From Sphaerobacteraceae bacterium (GTDB taxonomy: Bacteria > Chloroflexota > Chloroflexia > Thermomicrobiales > Thermomicrobiaceae): a stretch of 58,855 nucleotides of DNA. Every line of letters starts with the position of its first letter. Position 1 is the first letter of the stretch. The stretch is taken from NCBI GenBank assembly GCA_007695115.1, contig REEK01000121.1, forward strand, positions 1-58,855, read 5' to 3'. The translations under genes and the position numbers were made by a program. The notes under the pieces were generated by a model. That model made no database searches. It saw only the letters and a program-made list of their open reading frames with translations, and was not told the DNA's origin. Of the stretch, positions 4,162 to 54,955 are shown piece after piece.

Positions 4162-5292
4162 TCAGCTGAACCGTTCGAGGCTGAAGTGTTCCAGTAGCTC
4201 GTCCGGTTTTCCGGTCGCAATCGCATCGGCAACCAGCACTGCGCTGCCCGGGGCGAGCTGGATGCCTGTCCGATGATGGCCGGTCGAAACCCAGAGCCCG
4301 TCGTAACCAGGCACTGGTCCCATCAGCGGGGTATCGTCGGCGGTGCCGGGACGCAATCCGGCCCAGGTGCTGACGACTTCTGCGTTGCGCAGGCCCGGTC
4401 CGAGGCTCTGCATCAGCTCCATCGCGTACTCCAGCCCGAACGCCGTGACCCGCTTGTCGAACCCGATGTCTTCCAGCGAGGCGCCGACCGCAACGCTGCC
4501 ATCGATGCGCGGCACCAGATAGCCGCCGGTGATCTTGCCGATTACATGACGGGGTCGATCTGCGGCGGATTCCGGCAGGACTCCGATCATCTGGCCCTTG
4601 AACGGGATCAACGGCAGGCTTCGTTCGATAGCCGGGCCGAGGAACCGGGTCCAGGCTCCGGCGGAGAGAACGACTGTGCGTGTACTGATCGGACCGTCTG
4701 GCGTATCGACGCCGGTGACTCGTTCGCCATCGGTCAGGATCGAGACTGCTGGACAACGTTCCCGGATCTGGCCACCAATCGCTTGAAATGCCGCGGCGAC
4801 CGATTCTGTCCAGCGATGTCCGGTGAGCGTTCCGCCGTCCGCGCTGTAGAAGGCACCGAGAATGTCGTGCGGGATCATCGGTTCGAGTTGACGAACTTCA
4901 TCTGGTTCGATCCAGGTGGCGTCGATCCCGTGATTGATCTGCCAGTTGATCTGTGCCTGAGCCAGTTCGACTTCGTCTTCAGTTCGGGCAATCAGCACCT
5001 TGCCGATCGGCAGATAGCTGCTGGGTACGCCGCCGTCTTCTTCTACAGACTCGAGTAGTGCCGGGAAAAGCTTGTGGCTGATCTCCGCCAGCGCTGCCCG
5101 GTGTAATGGCAGCCCGGCGGCACTCGGTGGGCCCATGATTCCGGCGGTAGCCCAGGAGGCTTCGCGCCCGATCTTGCCGTGCTCCAGCAGCAGCGTATTG
5201 ATCTTTCGTTTCTGGAGTTCGTAGGCAAGGGTGCATCCGATGATTCCGCCACCGACGACGATGGCATCCGGGGCTGGTTGATGTTCGATCAC
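4162..5292 (-). CDS. FAD-dependent amino-acid oxidase, glycine oxidase (ThiO)-like
   Basis: 376 residues from GTG at 5292, preceded by GGAGAGG at good spacing; the longer open frame upstream has no family similarity. The N-terminal Rossmann FAD site reads AIVVGGGIIGCTLAYEL, followed by the DAO-type loop (REASWATAGIMGPPSAAG). The C-terminal FAD region reads GLRPGTADDTPLMGPVPG and GHHRTGIQLAPG. The family (DadA/ThiO/SoxB) oxidises glycine, sarcosine or D-amino acids to imines, releasing H2O2. No thiamine genes are nearby, so ThiO is only the best family guess; a sarcosine or D-amino acid oxidase is equally possible. It is cytoplasmic, with no signal peptide, and diverges from the crcB pair. Confidence 0.85.
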   Translation of the reverse strand: MIEHQPAPDAIVVGGGIIGCTLAYELQKRKINTLLLEHGKIGREASWATAGIMGPPSAAGLPLHRAALAEISHKLFPALLESVEEDGGVPSSYLPIGKVLIARTEDEVELAQAQINWQINHGIDATWIEPDEVRQLEPMIPHDILGAFYSADGGTLTGHRWTESVAAAFQAIGGQIRERCPAVSILTDGERVTGVDTPDGPISTRTVVLSAGAWTRFLGPAIERSLPLIPFKGQMIGVLPESAADRPRHVIGKITGGYLVPRIDGSVAVGASLEDIGFDKRVTAFGLEYAMELMQSLGPGLRNAEVVSTWAGLRPGTADDTPLMGPVPGYDGLWVSTGHHRTGIQLAPGSAVLVADAIATGKPDELLEHFSLERFS

Positions 5293-7432: not shown

Positions 7433-7622
7433 TGATCTTCCTGCCTGTCTATTTTGCTGCGCGACCTGCCAACAAAACATGTCGCATATGTATTGACTGT
7501 GCGCGATAGTAGCGGGAATCTGCGATGCTGTCCAGAGCGCCCCTTTTTCAACGCGATGGGTTTCGGTAGGCTACGTCTAACCGTTTTGCCCTGATCAGCC
7601 CGGGTTCGGAAGAGGAACATCG
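7433..7622. other. Divergent intergenic region before fdhA
   Basis: 190 bp separating the dehydratase and fdhA. It should hold promoters for both. A good Shine-Dalgarno (GAAGAGGAAC) ends 8 bp before the fdhA ATG. I do not see a consensus promoter or riboswitch here. Confidence 0.4.
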
Positions 7623-10600
7623 ATGGGACTGTTGACGCAGCTTCGAAACCATATCGGCATGAAGCCGAATCCGATCAGCCGATCGACCGACGAGATGCGC
7701 CCCCGGACCGATGGCGCCGACGTGACGGTCAGTGTCTGCCCGTACTGCGCGGTGGGCTGTTCTCAGCTTGTCTACGCCAAGCAGGGCCGGATCATCGATA
7801 TCGAGGGCAACTACGACAGCCCGATCAATGGCGGAACGCTCTGCCCCAAAGGTGCGGCCACCTACGGCCTGCTCCACAATCCTCACCGCGAGACCACGGT
7901 CAAATATCGCGCACCGTATAGCGACCACTGGGAAGAGCGGCCGCTCGAGTGGGCGATGGACCGTATCGCCGAGCGCGTGAAACAGACCCGCGACGCCACC
8001 TATGAGGAGACTGACGAGAACGGCGTTCCGGTGATGCGGACGCTGGGGATCGGTCATCTTGGCGGGGCCACGCTGGACAATGAAGAGAATTATCTGATCA
8101 AGAAGCTCTTCACCGGCGGTCTGGGGATCGTTGCCATCGAGAATCAGGCCCGGATATGACACTCCAGCACGGTGCCCGGTCTGGGCGCCAGACTCGGACG
8201 CGGCGGGGCAACCATGCCGCAACAGTCACTGGCTGATAGCGACTGCATCGTCATCATGGGCTCGAACATGGCCGAGAATCACCCTGTCGGGTTTCGCTTC
8301 GTAATGAAGGCGAAAGAGCGCGGAGCGACGATCATCCATATCGATCCCCGCTTCTCACGGACATCGGCGATGGCTGATCTTCACGTCCCGATTCGTGCCG
8401 GGTCCGACCTGGCGTTCCTCGGCGGGTTGATCAACTACGCGCTGTCGAGCGATCGCTGGGAGAGCGTGCCGTTCTTCCGCGAGTTCGTCCAGAGCTACAC
8501 AAACGGCCCAACGATTATCGGAGACACATTCAAAGACACCGAAGACCTCGCCGGGATGTTCTCGGGCTACGATCCAGAATCCGGCGCGTATGAATCCTCC
8601 ACCTGGGCCTACGATGAGGGCCACCTCGATCCGGAGATGACCGATCCTCGCTGCGCGTTCCAGATCATCAAGCGGCATTTTTCCCGCTATACCCCGGAGA
8701 TGGTGGAGCAGGTCTGCGGTGTGCCGCAAGAGCTCTTCGAGCAGGTTGCCGAGGCGATTCTGACGAGTTCCGGGCCAGATCGGACCACCGCGTTCTGTTA
8801 TGCCGTGGCCTGGACCCAGCACACCACCGGCACACAGATCATCAGCTGCTGCGCGCTGTTGCAGTTGCTGCTGGGGAACATGGGTCGGCCGGGTGGTGGG
8901 ATTCTGGCCCTTCGCGGCCACGCCACGATTCAGGGCAGCACCGATATTCCGACGCTCTACCACCTGCTGCCCGGCTACATATCCATGCCGATGGTCGATG
9001 CCGGTCACCTCGATCTGCAATCGTTCATGGACGCCATCCAGCAACCGAAAGGCTGGTGGCACAACGCCCCGAAGTACATAGTGAGCTTCCTGAAAGCCTG
9101 GTACGGGGATGCCGCGACCGGGGAGAACGACTACTGCTTCGACTATGTTCCGAAGATTTCCGGCGACTACTCCTTTGCGGCGATGATGCCGATGATGAAG
9201 GACGGGACCATCAAGGGGCTCTTCTGCATGGGAATGAACCCGGCGGTCGGTGGGCAGAACTCGAAGCTGATCCGGGAAGGTCTGGCCAATCTCGACTGGA
9301 TGGTGATGCGGGACCCATATGAGATCGAGACGGCCGCCTTCTGGCACGATTCGCCGGAAGTTCGTAGCGGGGAGGTTCGCCCTGAAGACATCAAGACGGA
9401 GATCTTCTTCCTGCCTCCGGCCGTGACACCGGAGAAAGACGGCTCTTACACGAACACGCAGCGGCTGGTTCAGTGGCACGAGAAGGCGGTCGATCCGCCG
9501 GAAGATTGCCGCTCCGAGCCGTGGTTCATGTACCACCTGGGACGGCGCCTGAAAGCTCTCTACGCCGACGAAGAGACCCCACAGGCCCGTCAGCTCCAGG
9601 TGCTGACCTGGGACTACGACACCGAAGGGATCTACGATGACCCGCGTCTGGAGCAGGTGATCGAGGAGATCAACGGCTACACCGTGAGAGATCGGAAACT
9701 CGTCTCCGGATTCGCCGAGTTGAAAGACGACGGCTCGACGGCCTGCGGATGCTGGATCTATTCCGGGATCATGCCGGAACCGGGGCTGAATCTGGCGCGA
9801 AACCGGAAGGGCGACGATGCGGCATCGCTCGAGTGGGGCTTCGCCTGGCCGGCCAACCGGCGGGTTCTCTACAATCGCGCCTCGGCCGATCCGTCCGGTA
9901 AGCCGTGGAGCGAGCGCAAGCGCTGGATCTGGTGGGATGAAGAGCAGGAACGGTGGACTGGCTACGATGTGCCCGACTTCCCGGCTACCAAGCGTCCCGA
10001 CTATCGACCCGGGCCAGATGCCGTCGGTATCGATGCCCATCGCGGCGATGCACCGTTCATCATGATGCCGGACGGCCATGGTTTGCTCTTCGCTCCGGCC
10101 GGACTCGTGGATGGTCCGATTCCGACGCATTACGAACCGTGGGAGAGCCCGGTGACCAATCTGCTCTACCCGGAGCAGGTGCGTTCTCCGGTGGTTCCGA
10201 CGTTCGATCGGCCAGACAATCAGTATCACGAGATCGGCGATCCACGATTTCCCTATGTGCTGACCACCTATCGACTCACCGAGCATCACACCGCTGGTGG
10301 GATGAGTCGATTCGTTCCCTGGCTGGCCGAGCTTCAACCTGGCGGATTTGCCGAGATCAGCCCGGAGCTGGCCGGTGAGTTCGGAATCGACAATGGCGAC
10401 TGGGTAACGCTCACCACCTTACGTGGGGAGATCGAAACCCGGGCGCTGGTGACCGAGCGGTTGCAGCCATTGACGATTCATGGTCGGCCGGTTCACCAGA
10501 TCGGGATGCCGTGGCACTATGGCTGGGGTGGCATGGCCACGGGCGATATCGCCAACGATCTGAGCGCCCTGATCGAGGATCCGAACTCCCGCATTCATCA

Positions 10601-10676
10601 GGCAAAGGCGTTTACCTGCGATCTGAGTCGCGGACGCCTGCCCCGGACGAACGGAGCTTCAGGCGATGATGAGTGA
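7623..10676 (+). CDS. fdhA: Formate dehydrogenase catalytic subunit, selenocysteine-containing
   Basis: 1017 residues when the in-frame TGA at 8157-8159 is read as selenocysteine (residue 179). The N-terminus binds a [4Fe-4S] cluster (C39, C42, C46, C74 in VCPYCAVGCSQ and LCPKGA). The Sec context is ENQARI-U-HSSTVPGLG, the signature of Sec-type formate dehydrogenases, where Sec ligates Mo/W and Cys is the usual substitute. Bis-MGD binding motifs follow (IVIMGSNMAENHPVGF, HIDPRFSRTSAMAD), and a C-terminal molydopterin dinucleotide domain (NGDWVTLTTLRGEIETRALV). Length matches FdnG/FdoG, but there is no twin-arginine signal, so the active site may be cytoplasmic. It is the first gene of fdhA-fdhB-nrfD. 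The enzyme oxidises formate to CO2 and passes electrons to the beta and membrane subunits. A standard gene caller would split it at 8159. Confidence 0.96.
8171..8189 (+). promoter_or_regulatory. SECIS hairpin of fdhA
   Basis: In the mRNA, 11 nt after the UGA, GGUGCCC (8171-8177) pairs with GGGCGCC (8183-8189) over 7 bp around the loop GGUCU (8178-8182). The loop begins 19 nt after the UGA, the same place as the GGUCU of E. coli fdhF. This matches the bacterial SECIS bound by SelB. Confidence 0.9.
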
Positions 10677-47709: not shown

Positions 47710-50511
47710 ATGACCAGTACACCAACCAAGACTGACCAGAACCAGACTGAAGAGCAGGCTCACGAGGCGACGTTGCTCGTCTCCGGAATGACCTGTGCCT
47801 CCTGCGTCCGGCGAGTCGAGCGCGGCCTCGAAAAGCTCGACGGTGTGGGATCGGCCAGCGTCAATCTGGCGACTGAGCGGGCTCGTGTCTCCTATGATCC
47901 GTCTACGCTGTCTCCTGACGATCTCCGGGCTGCGGTCGAAAAGGCAGGCTACGGAGTCGATCAGATCGATGCTGGCGATCCTTCGCCTGCCTCGAACGGG
48001 CATGCGCCGGCGTCGGCCGCTCCCGAGCCTGGCGAGATCACGCTCGATGTCGAGGGAATGACCTGCGCATCGTGTGTCCGCCGTGTCGAGCGCTCATTGA
48101 GCCGGGTGGACGGAGTCAGCCAGGCGAGCGTCAACTTCGCCACCGAGCAGGCCACCGTCTCCTATGACCCGGCATCGGTCGATATCAACGCACTGACGGC
48201 GGCGGTTGAGAAGGCGGGATTCGGCGCAAGCGTTCCGCAGGCACGCGAGTCTGCGAGCTCTGCGCAACATGCCCAGTCCGCTCAGGAACAGGTTGACCCG
48301 CGAGAAGCGGCCCGAGAGCGGGAGATGAACGATCTCAAGCGCAAGTGGATCGTCGGTCTGGCGATCGGCGCGGTGATGATGATCGAGATGTATGTCCCGC
48401 TCGGGATCGACATGGAGTATCTGGCACCGCTGATGCTCATTCAGGCGGCGATCGTGCAGTTCTGGGCTGGCTCGATCTTCTACAAGGGCGCCTGGGCTGC
48501 CGCAAAACATTTCACGACCAATATGAACACGTTGGTGGCTATCGGCACCAGTGTCGCGTTCGGCTACAGCGCATTCGTGACGCTCTGGCCCGGCCTGGCC
48601 GCACAATGGGGATTTCCGTTCCATCTCTATTTCGAGACTGCGGTGGTCATCATCGCGCTCGTCCTGATGGGGCGCTGGATGGAAGCCCGAGCCAAGAAGC
48701 AGACGAGCTCTGCCATCAAGGCGCTGGCCGGATTGCAGGCACGCACGGCACGGGTCATTCGTGATGGTGTGGAACAGGATATCCCGATTGAGTCGGTTCA
48801 GGCTGGTGATCACGTCCGAGTTCGACCGGGCGAGAAAGTGCCGGTCGACGGGGTGATCGTCGAGGGCGCATCGGCACTCGACGAGAGCATGCTGACTGGC
48901 GAGAGTGTGCCGGTGGAAAAGAGTGCCGACGACCAGGTGATCGGTGCCACGATCAACAAGACCGGAAGCTTCGTGTTCCGGGCAACCAAGGTTGGTCGAG
49001 ATACCACGCTGTCTCAGATCATGCGTATGGTCGAAGAAGCACAGGGGTCGAAGGCGCCGATGCAGGCGATGGTCGACACCATCTCGAGCTACTTCGTGCC
49101 GATCGTGCTGGTGGCGGCCTCACTCGCGTTTGCTGTATGGCTCGCCTTCGGACCCGGACTGATCTTCGCGCTGACCGTGATGATCGCGACACTGATTATC
49201 GCCTGCCCGTGTGCGCTCGGACTGGCTACGCCGACGGCGATTATGGTCGGAACCGGAAAAGCGGCCGAGAACGGCATTCTGGTGCGCGGTGGAGAAGCGC
49301 TGGAGATGACTCGCCGCATCGACACGATCGTGCTAGACAAGACCGGCACCCTGACACAGGGCAAGCCGACGGTAACGGAGATCGTTACGGCCAACGGAAT
49401 GCCGGAGTCCGACGTTCTTGGTCTGGCCGCTGCCGCGGAAGTCGGCTCAGAGCATCCCCTCGGTGAGGCGATCGTCAATCGAGCGCAGGAACTGGGGCTC
49501 GATCTATCGCAATCAGAAGGTTTTCAGTCGATCACCGGCAAGGGTATCGAAGCTCGTGTCGACGGACGTCAGGTGCTGATCGGCAATCGGGCACTGATGG
49601 ATCAGTACAGCATCGAGTTGGATGGGCTGACGGCCCGGGCGACCGAGATGGCTGCTGGAGGCGTCACGCCGATGTATGTGGCGGTTGACAACACCGGAGC
49701 CGGGATCATCGCTGTGGCTGACACGCTGAAGCCGGAGTCGACCGAAGCGGTCGCCAAGCTCAAGGCACTCGGCCTGGAAGTCTGGATGATCACCGGCGAT
49801 AACCAGGCAACCGCAGAAGCGATTGCCCGGCAGGTCGGTATCGATCACGTCCTGGCTGAGGTCCTTCCGGAACAGAAGGCCGAGAAAGTCGTCTCATTCC
49901 AGGATGAAGGCCGTACGGTGGCGATGGTCGGCGACGGGATCAACGACGCCCCGGCGCTGGCTCAGGCGAACCTCGGCATTGCGATCGGCACCGGAACTGA
50001 CGTCGCAATGGCGGCATCGGACATCACGCTGATTGGTGGCGATCTCCGGACGATCGTAACCGCGATCGCCCTCTCCCGGAAGACGGTTGGCGCGATCAAG
50101 CAGGGTCTGTTCTGGGCGTTCGGGTACAACACGCTGCTGATTCCAGTGGCGATGGGAATTCTCTATCCGTTCTTCGGATTGCTGCTGAATCCGGTTCTGG
50201 CCGCCGCAGCGATGGCGATGAGCAGCGTCTCGGTGGTAACCAATGCGTTGCGCTTGCGAGGCTTCCGCCAGCCAGACACGGCGGAGGAGATCCTGAACCC
50301 GCCCCTGAAGGCTCGGATTGGCGAATATGCGTACCTGGTCGCGATCGGCGTGGTGGCGATCATCGTCGGTGGCTTCGCGCTGGTGTTGGCGAATCCAGAT
50401 CATGCCGAGGGACATGCCCCAGGCGGACATTCTGATCACGGCGCAGTGGTTGAGCCGGCGCCAGTAGCGGATCACGGACAGCCCGGGATCGTCCTGGAGG
50501 ATGAGCGGTAG
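47710..50511 (+). CDS. copA: Copper-exporting P1B-type ATPase
   Basis: 933 residues. Two N-terminal HMA domains, each with GMTCASC (about residues 26-32 and 116-122), then eight TM helices including the ion channel [14 protein letters not shown] (about 497). Cytoplasmic motifs: GESVPVEK (A-domain), phosphorylated Asp in [10 protein letters not shown] (about 543), SEHPLGEAI, and [10 protein letters not shown]. The C-terminus ends in a His/Asp-rich tail ([17 protein letters not shown]). It exports Cu(I). Directly regulated by the upstream CsoR. Note that its HMA pairs are CxxC, in contrast to the UxxC of the Sec-HMA protein elsewhere in the window. Confidence 0.96.
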
Positions 50512-53026: not shown

Positions 53027-53392
53027 TTAGTCACTCATATCTTCCCAGGAATCGGGCCGATAGCCGATCCCTTCGAGTTCATCCATGATCTCGTCGATCG
53101 AGACGTGATCGGCATCGTACCGGAGTTCGACCACATCGCTCTGAAAGTCGGTGCTGTGGTCCAGAACGCCGTCAATGCTGTTCAACTCGGACGCGACCGC
53201 GCCCGCGCAAGACTGTCAGGTCATGCCCAGATTCTGGAGCATGACGTGTTGTTCACCAGATGCTGAAGCTCCGGGAGAGACTGATTCTTCGTCGTCACCC
53301 GATAGAGCCGTTGTCGCAATCAGGAAGGCGCCAGCGCCGACCATGAAAAATGCGCCGAGTGCAAGCAAGATCGTACTGAAAGATTTCCCCAT
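53027..53392 (-). CDS. Membrane-anchored HMA metal-binding selenoprotein (GMTUxxC)
   Basis: 121 residues when TGA at 53216-53218 is read as Sec (residue 59). N-terminal helix (FSTILLALGAFFMVGAGAFLIATTAL) is a signal anchor, followed by an acidic linker. Then the HMA domain: MLQNLGMT-U-QSCAGAVASELNSIDGV, LDHSTDFQSDVVELRYDADHV, EIMDELEGIGYRPDS. In MerP/CopZ/Atx1-like domains this motif is GMTCxxC, so the first metal ligand is Sec and the second is Cys62. ATG at 53392 has GGAG 9 bp upstream; ATG 53401 is possible. It lies 6 bp before rlmN and 187 bp after the Sec-CcdA gene. Likely partner or substrate of CcdA outside the membrane (inference). Confidence 0.93.
53189..53204 (-). promoter_or_regulatory. 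SECIS hairpin of the Sec-HMA gene
   Basis: GGGCGC (12-17 nt after the UGA) pairs with GCGUCC (22-27) around the loop GGUC at 18-21. Same loop and spacing as the FDH and CcdA elements and as E. coli fdhF. Confidence 0.88.
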
Positions 53393-53579: not shown

Positions 53580-54461
53580 CTAAACCGGGAATACCGTCGC
53601 GAAGTAATCCGCCCAGATAGCGAGGGCGAGGAACCAGATGCCAACTCCGATGAGGACCATCCCGCCAAAGCGTTTTGCGCTTGATGAAGCGATTCGAAGT
53701 GAACGAATCGTCTGTTCGCGAGCGGTCGTCACCAGTATCGCGAGGGTGAACATCAGTGCGAGGATGACGATGCTTGCCGTGAGGAAGGCTCCGATCGCGG
53801 CGGCAGTTCCTCCGATGACGAGAGCATAGGCGGCCAGACCGGCCAGAATCGGCCCTGTTCAGCCGAAGCCCGCCACCAGGTATCCGAAGCCGAAGAGTGA
53901 GATTCGCCCGATCCCGGCGTTGGCTCCACGTTGTTTGACCGCCCCAACGAGCGGGTCAGCCAGATCCTGAACGGGTGGGATACGGAAGGGAAACACTCCG
54001 AGTTGAACCAGTCCGAGAAGGATCAGCAAGGAGCCAACAACGCTCCGCAGGATGACCCCTTCGGTACTGGCGAACACGACTCCTTCGAACACCTGTGTTC
54101 CCGCCACCGCGATAATCCCGCCGATTATCAACAGGAACGCTGTGGCACCGCCTGACAGGGCCATCGCAAACGGTAGCGTCTGGCGCCATGATGGGCGATG
54201 TCCGCTCCGCTCCTGGCTGGGTGATCTCCCGAACAGACTGATGAGCAGCGGAAACGAACACGGTGAAAAGAAACTGGCGATGCCAGCTCCGGCAGCCAGC
54301 ACGAAGAGCCCGGCAACAGTGACTCCCGGCAGATCAAACCGTGGATAGATCACATATCCCAGATAGCCGACGAGACTGGCCAGGATCAGCCCGACGAGGA
54401 TCGCACCGTAGCCGATGATTGAGCGGCTGGTCAGGGTGGACAGAGTGTTGTGCTGTTTCAC
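53580..54461 (-). CDS. CcdA/DsbD-like membrane redox selenoprotein
   Basis: 293 residues when TGA at 53859-53861 is read as Sec (residue 201), from GTG 54461 with AGAGG upstream. About seven TM helices. The first redox Cys68 lies in GIASFFSPCSFPLLISLFG, the second position in the later half reads ISLFGFGYLVAGFG-U-TGPILAGLAAYAL. In CcdA this is GCxGPIL or similar, so Sec replaces the second of the two intramembrane cysteines that shuttle electrons from cytoplasmic thioredoxin to outer-side proteins. The frame continues without interruption to TAG at 53580. It is just downstream of merR, with a MerR-type promoter between. Confidence 0.92.
53831..53845 (-). promoter_or_regulatory. SECIS hairpin of the Sec-CcdA gene
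   Basis: UGGCC (14-18 nt after the UGA) pairs with GGCCG (24-28, one U-G) around GGUCU at 19-23. The loop sequence and distance are identical to the fdhA element. Confidence 0.88.
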
Positions 54462-54502: not shown

Positions 54503-54534
54503 AGGCTACCGTCTCCACTCGACTGGAGAGTCAA
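54503..54534 (-). promoter_or_regulatory. MerR-type promoter/operator inside the merR 3' end
   Basis: On the minus strand TTGACT (54534-54529), 20-bp spacer, TAGCCT (54508-54503). The spacer holds an imperfect dyad, about CTCTCCA-GTCGAG-TGGAGA. The over-long spacer (20 bp, as for ZntR-type sites) with a central dyad is the hallmark of MerR-family activation, and the transcript would start about 35 nt before the Sec-CcdA GTG. The site overlaps the last nine codons of merR. Confidence 0.8.
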
Positions 54535-54955
54535 GGACTTCTGGGGTTCCTGCATTGAGGGACTCTATGGCCGGGCAGACCACCTCAACGAGTGATCCAT
54601 CCGAATGCTCCGCGTTGTCCAGTTCGTACAGTGTTCGAGACAGATTATCGCGCATCGCCTGAAGCTGGACGATACGGTCATCGAGTTCCTGCATATTCTG
54701 TTCGACAGCCGAGCGAACACAGGGGCAAGGTGAGTGTTCAGTGGAGGCTGAAGCGAGTATCCGTCTGATCTGCTCCAGCCTGAGACCAAGCCCCTGCGCC
54801 GCACGAATGAACGCCAGTTGCTGCTGGTGACGATCGGTGAACAGGCGGTAACCGGACTCTGTCCGGGATGCCGTCCCAAGCAACCCGATATCTTCGTAGT
54901 AGCGGATCGTCCGCACCGGGACGCCAGTTTTTTCCGCCAGTTCTCCGATTCGCAT
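54506..54955 (-). CDS. MerR-family metal-responsive regulator (ZntR/CadR-like)
   Basis: 149 residues from ATG 54955 with GGAGACC upstream. N-terminal winged helix RIGELAEKTGVPVRTIRYYEDIGLL, dimerisation coiled coil (SAVEQNMQELDDRIVQLQAM), metal-site candidates C77 and C79 (SPCPCV) and C127 (VVCPAIESL). Compared with ZntR/CadR (several Cys/His) and MerR (three Cys), the exact metal cannot be assigned. It follows rraA by 20 bp and probably controls the downstream Sec-CcdA/Sec-HMA genes through the operator that overlaps its own 3' end. Confidence 0.9.
   Translation of the reverse strand: MRIGELAEKTGVPVRTIRYYEDIGLLGTASRTESGYRLFTDRHQQQLAFIRAAQGLGLRLEQIRRILASASTEHSPCPCVRSAVEQNMQELDDRIVQLQAMRDNLSRTLYELDNAEHSDGSLVEVVCPAIESLNAGTPEVLDSPVEWRR

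Follow-up and report, generated by a model that had tools for sequence, protein, structure and literature searches.

What is a UGA codon doing in the middle of a gene for a CcdA-like membrane protein, and what would such a protein gain from a selenocysteine (Sec) at that position? The gene lies within the 58,855-nucleotide stretch of DNA analyzed here, hereafter called the window. It runs on the minus strand from 54461 to 53580 (293 codons, ending with TAG), and it starts either at the GTG at 54461 or at an in-frame GTG at 54518. Its frame, alignments and Foldseek comparisons mark it as a candidate CcdA-like membrane selenoprotein gene encoding 293 amino acids. The frame contains exactly one TGA, at codon 201 (53859..53861, minus strand), in the context YLVAGFG-U-TGPILAGL; upstream of it, the codon for Cys68 (54258..54260, minus strand) falls in the sequence FFSPCSFP. 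A sequence-only reading of the window had placed these two residues at the positions that form the intramembrane disulfide of CcdA and DsbD, and had proposed an electron conduit with lower redox potential and faster exchange.

The in-frame UGA of that reading proved real: 14 genomes have homologs in which codon 201 is likewise TGA. These belong to the organism's own genus (G000, G107 and G110, plus a contig-cut copy in G108), to further genera and families within the order (G118, G122, G101, G104, G151 and G153) and to a different class of the phylum (G771, G688, G645 and G803). Some of the 14 homologs are cut by contig ends, and in that of G151 the frame is broken close to the 5' end. The sequence AGFG-U-TGPI-x-AGL is invariant across the first ten aligned homologs. 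Five further homologs, one of them from an archaeon, carry cysteine at the position of residue 201; the single contig scan used a query with Sec back-translated as Cys and could find Cys homologs only. In a phylogenetic tree, 13 Sec sequences fall on one side of a well-supported branch (95/97), the five Cys sequences are their sister group, and canonical CcdA stands apart, a topology that fits a single origin of Sec in the sampled CcdA-like family. When plasmids were searched by tblastn, the Sec protein had no match, and a Cys homolog used as the query recovered nothing but short segments of CcdA genes, most of them haloarchaeal. Decayed copies of the Sec-type gene were also seen in four members of one genus (L044, L045, L046 and L053, from G119, G120, G123 and G124), the copy in G123 having the motif GIGR in place of GFGU.

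The sequence directly past the UGA has the form of a bacterial SECIS. A stem-loop with the loop GGUCU lies 18 nt after the codon (53829..53847, minus strand), the same spacing and loop as in Escherichia coli fdhF. The window offers an internal control outside the operon, a gene for an FdhA-like selenoprotein (7581..10676, plus strand; motif UHSSTVPGLGA, UGA at 8157), whose SECIS also has this loop and spacing. A SECIS-type hairpin follows 18 nt past the UGA in every CcdA-Sec homolog, and its loop is GGUCU in 14 of 16 UGA loci; the deviant loops of G688 (GGUUU) and G803 (AGUCU) keep the spacing. Among 15 distinct sequences, 90.5% of the stem cells pair and both partners have changed in three stem pairs; pairing falls to at most 46% once the partner strand is shifted by 1–3 columns. 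The outer two stem pairs are weak in the organism's own genus, and the innermost pair is U-A in G803 versus C-G in the others. In the loop, glycine is encoded by GGT in 10 of 10 sequences versus 22% elsewhere in these genes, which does not amount to ten independent events because the sequences are related. When the 2002 TGA triplets of the 58.9-kb window were filtered for a spacing of 17–18 nt, a GGU loop and a stem of at least 5, four sites remained: those in the FdhA gene, the CcdA-like gene and the heavy metal-associated (HMA) gene next to it, and one within a 44-codon frame, which was taken as noise. The genome itself (3.68 Mb, 98.5% complete) encodes SelA (429 bits), SelB (361 bits) and a tRNA-Sec with a TCA anticodon.

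Could the UGA instead be an ordinary stop or a sequencing error, leaving a truncated 200-amino acid protein or a pseudogene? TGA does serve as a normal stop elsewhere in this genome, and a related genus has decayed copies of the gene. The use of TGA as a sense codon throughout can be rejected because genes here end in TGA, as the adjoining RlmN gene does. Yet an ordinary stop would have to account for a UGA held at one codon across 14 genomes, with cysteine at the same position in homologs, a covarying hairpin behind it and the Sec machinery in the genome. It would also have to account for the substitutions downstream: in pairwise comparisons, codon positions 1, 2 and 3 after the UGA differ 11, 3 and 46 times between this gene and that of G107, and 17, 7 and 51 times between it and that of G110. 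Such a third-position-heavy pattern indicates that translation continues past the UGA without a change of frame; the concern that the C-terminal part belongs to a separate gene is thereby removed. On the hairpin covariation and the codon-position bias, we rejected both the canonical-stop and the pseudogene readings, which we regard as very improbable. What is expected of a selenoprotein gene was found here, namely a conserved in-frame UGA where homologs have Cys, a bacterial SECIS directly past it, and SelA, SelB and tRNA-Sec in one genome. On these sequence grounds, UGA codon 201 is predicted to encode Sec and not to be a stop.

The relationship to CcdA was evaluated by several routes. When the Sec proteins were aligned to canonical CcdA proteins from the same phylum, residue 201 fell on the TM4 cysteine and Cys68 (SPCxFP) on the TM1 cysteine. 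A profile of the Sec proteins aligned to one of canonical CcdA with an hhalign probability of 98.7%, and a profile built from the combined alignment found the Thermus thermophilus CcdA (5VKV) by hmmsearch with E=1e-30, both redox columns being aligned. Single Sec sequences had no match to the Pfam family DsbD_TM (PF02683) when scanned one by one. A first structure model, made from 10 sequences, was poor (pLDDT 62) and was replaced by an AlphaFold model with a mean pLDDT of 73. As regards the CcdA fold, with its six helices and inverted repeat, Foldseek ranked CcdA 5VKV first for this model (prob 0.99, TM 0.43/0.53, E 0.054), and a VIA-align comparison of the model with CcdA gave a Z of 7.2, a value on par with those for unrelated helical proteins and transporters. 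Profile–profile alignment, the profile match to 5VKV and the multiple alignment thus agree that residue 201 lies in the redox column and that Cys68 and Sec201 occupy the CcdA/DsbD redox positions, as had been proposed. Very probably, then, the gene encodes a CcdA-related membrane protein in which one of the two working cysteines is now Sec. In common with CcdA (TtCcdA 5VKV; PF02683) are the SPCxxP motif in TM1 and the C-x-GP motif in TM4; unlike CcdA, the protein has Sec as the second redox residue and an additional N-terminal helix, falls with the other Sec proteins in a separate clade, and is encoded beside an HMA gene rather than a gene for a thioredoxin-like protein. A PF02683 scan found no match elsewhere in the genome, and therefore this gene may be its only CcdA-type conduit.

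The gene is the second of an operon ordered MerR regulator, CcdA-Sec, HMA-Sec. The first gene (54506..54955, minus strand) encodes a MerR-family metalloregulator, relatives of which retain two cysteines, one in the Cys79/82-type position and the other near the C-terminus. The gene directly downstream of CcdA-Sec (53027..53392, minus strand) encodes a protein in which an N-terminal membrane anchor precedes an HMA domain (PF00403; 44.4 bits, E=2e-11) with the motif GMT-Sec-QSC; against the MerP model TIGR02052, the protein scores 23.6 bits, below the curated cut-off of 92.55. Its in-frame UGA (53216..53218, minus strand) takes the first cysteine position of GMTCxxC and is followed after 17 nt by a SECIS-type stem-loop with a GGUC loop and a 7-bp stem (53188..53205, minus strand). 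The hairpin is present in six of six copies, with one mismatch within the stem in G107. Copies in the organism's own genus have an N-terminal transmembrane anchor and then acidic residues, and the anchored HMA domain of the window probably lies outside the cell, given that the N-terminus is positive and that acidic residues follow the helix. Encoded on the other strand, some 2.5 kb away from the operon, is a P-type ATPase with two HMA domains (47710–50511, plus strand), both with CxxC and without Sec.

Gene surroundings in relatives vary. The HMA-Sec gene adjoins CcdA-Sec in the four members of the genus that carry it and in two genomes of another family, where the order is MerR, CcdA-Sec, DUF7482, HMA-Sec. 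An all-cysteine version of the operon occurs in G369 (MerR, HMA with CxxC, CcdA with GMGC, and a DUF7482-like gene), and in G803 an HMA domain (CxxC) is fused to CcdA-Sec itself (L076 89–1162). A cluster in G715 (L074 3800–7140) encodes several HMA proteins, one with CxxC and two apparently exported with an apparent UxxC (UGA at 5036 and 5733), as well as, in a different frame, a second CcdA-like protein (TPC ... LDVPACTSPL); the hairpins of the UxxC genes are weaker or not clear, the UGA at 5036 lacking a clear one. In G793, a merA fragment frameshifted over two frames and ending in SCCAG (L077 3–1156) lies about 2 kb upstream of an HMA-CcdA(Cys) pair, and the archaeal Cys homolog lies near genes for a CopZ-type metallochaperone and ArsR. 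The HMA proteins of G101, G104, G369 and G793 have no visible anchor or signal and look cytosolic. A strict need for an adjacent HMA-Sec gene was rejected: CcdA-Sec genes are solitary in several relatives, and seven genomes with CcdA-Sec (G118, G122, G151, G153, G771, G688 and G645) gave no HMA-Sec match. A thioredoxin-fold partner encoded near the CcdA gene is common but not strictly defining for CcdA; in the loci examined, no gene for a TlpA/ResA-like or other thioredoxin-fold partner was found, and several have HMA domains instead. Wherever a partner can be identified, it is a metal-binding domain and not a thioredoxin. DUF7482 proteins (PF24298) adjoin the CcdA gene in three loci (L024 643–1203, L038 6864–7421 and L039 1854–2405), and a fourth gene beside a CcdA gene (L060 5942–6538) was assigned to DUF7482 by position and likeness only; some of these proteins have short Met-rich stretches and are possibly metal-binding exported partners. 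An OsmC-family gene (L042 8007–8522, plus strand) is divergent from the solitary CcdA-Sec gene of G118, and a similar gene lies by the decayed copy of G120.

CcdA moves reducing equivalents outward via a cysteine pair, for which a TM1/TM4 elevator has been proposed (PMC7329351). By analogy, Cys68 and Sec201 would be the intramembrane pair of a CcdA-fold thiol/selenol relay, reduced from the cytoplasm, swinging over the bilayer and re-oxidized by an extracytoplasmic partner. In known CcdA proteins the pair is reduced by thioredoxin, and the extracytoplasmic partners are anchored and thioredoxin-like. Here an anchored HMA protein stands in the place of that canonical partner, and we therefore favor, tentatively and with somewhat less than even confidence, a relay that sends reductant to the Sec-x-x-Cys site of the adjacent, N-terminally anchored HMA selenoprotein, its most likely partner. 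That site would have to stay reduced outside the cell for soft-metal binding, and the MerR-type regulator would switch on both selenoproteins when metal is present. Electron conduction is plausible, as are the lower potential and faster exchange that the sequence-only reading had ascribed to the Cys-Sec pair, which follow from general selenium chemistry; the electron flow, the role of the HMA protein as its client, the metal involved and the sidedness of the HMA domain are all inferred. The placement of Sec201 and Cys68 on the CcdA redox columns, the Foldseek rank of 5VKV, the adjacent HMA-Sec gene with its anchor and acidic stretch in the own genus, the lack of a PF02683 match elsewhere in the genome, and the Sec machinery together with a UGA and hairpin at fixed spacing in all homologs count for reductant delivery. 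Counting against it are the failure to find a thioredoxin-fold partner in the loci examined, the seven CcdA-Sec genomes with no HMA-Sec match, and the cytosolic-looking HMA proteins, including the one fused to the cytosolic-looking N-terminus of CcdA-Sec in G803, since a cytosolic HMA domain would be an odd client for an outward flow of reductant.

The same HMA neighbor ties the system to metals and so makes direct metal transfer a serious alternative and a close rival of reductant delivery. The Cys-Sec pair would then bind a soft metal (Hg2+ or similar) within the membrane, MerT-like in role, and relay it from HMA domain to HMA domain across the bilayer, with the CcdA fold reused as a carrier. 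The cytosolic-looking HMA proteins, the G803 fusion and the merA neighbor in G793 favor this, and the MerR/HMA operon of the window, in which the identifiable partners are HMA domains, agrees with it, as do the all-cysteine operon of G369, the G715 cluster with its two UxxC proteins, the CopZ-type and ArsR neighbors of the archaeal homolog and the cysteines retained in the MerR copies. In actinomycetes, moreover, CcdA proteins carry annotations as mercury transporters (PMC12195606). Against metal transfer stand the many CcdA-Sec genomes without an HMA-Sec gene and the organism's own genome, which has no merA above the curated cut-off; its two best MerA matches are of the disulfide-reductase type and lack the C-terminal CC, so that classical MerA mercury resistance was rejected. 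To our knowledge, furthermore, every characterized CcdA/DsbD protein moves electrons. We hold direct metal transfer to be possible, though doubtful, and regard as unlikely the broader proposal of a complete selenium-based transmembrane metal relay, in which a Cys-Sec pair in a CcdA-type carrier would supply HMA selenoproteins with soft metal, or with electrons whose transfer is coupled to the release of metal. If the HMA gene were incidental, the protein might simply be the genome's sole CcdA-type conduit, serving cytochrome c maturation or extracytoplasmic thiol homeostasis; the solitary CcdA-Sec genes of several relatives and the lack of PF02683 matches in the genome would suit such a role, but its clade lies far from canonical CcdA and the MerR-HMA linkage recurs in three lineages, and we consider it improbable.

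Known systems resemble parts of this one. An inventory published in 2026, which covers 119 families and subfamilies of prokaryotic selenoproteins, includes no CcdA (PMC13188914), and a search of the openly licensed literature brought up no previous description of a CcdA with Sec, though it may be mentioned elsewhere. The nearest listed family is TsoB (NF045694, rhodanese/DsbD fusion-like), likewise a selenoprotein with a DsbD-type membrane part, which we compared by profile. Its model spans 572 positions and has two Sec residues (UxxxxU), whereas the window protein has one and does not match NF045694; TsoB had no match in a 400-genome sample of the phylum. HMA selenoproteins were already known (PMC2398784; PMC13188914), and the families NF041115 (UxxU_metal_bind) and NF045683 (MerT_CopZ_Se), as well as MerP proteins from an ocean survey (PMC2398784), have Sec, as here, within the metal motif of an HMA domain. 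In contrast to these MerP/CopZ-type proteins, the HMA protein of the window has a single Sec (UxxC) and an N-terminal anchor, is linked to a CcdA-like protein instead of MerT, and scores far under the cut-offs of NF041115 and NF045683. MerT/MerP import likewise pairs a membrane protein bearing a thiol pair with an HMA protein under a MerR regulator, but the membrane part here is CcdA-like and the genome has no MerA above the cut-off. No description of an HMA selenoprotein paired with a CcdA-like protein was found in the openly licensed literature.

Genes of this type are expected to be truncated or broken in standard annotation, because it ends genes at UGA. A conserved intramembrane redox Sec would make it possible to test directly how the pair of CcdA is moved: 77Se NMR or X-ray absorption can trace a selenenylsulfide, and replacing Sec with Cys alters a single atom. 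CcdA-Sec beside HMA-Sec suggests a selenium-based transmembrane relay for handling soft metals or for protecting proteins that bind metal, and the pairing would connect the use of selenium with the handling of heavy metals in these bacteria.
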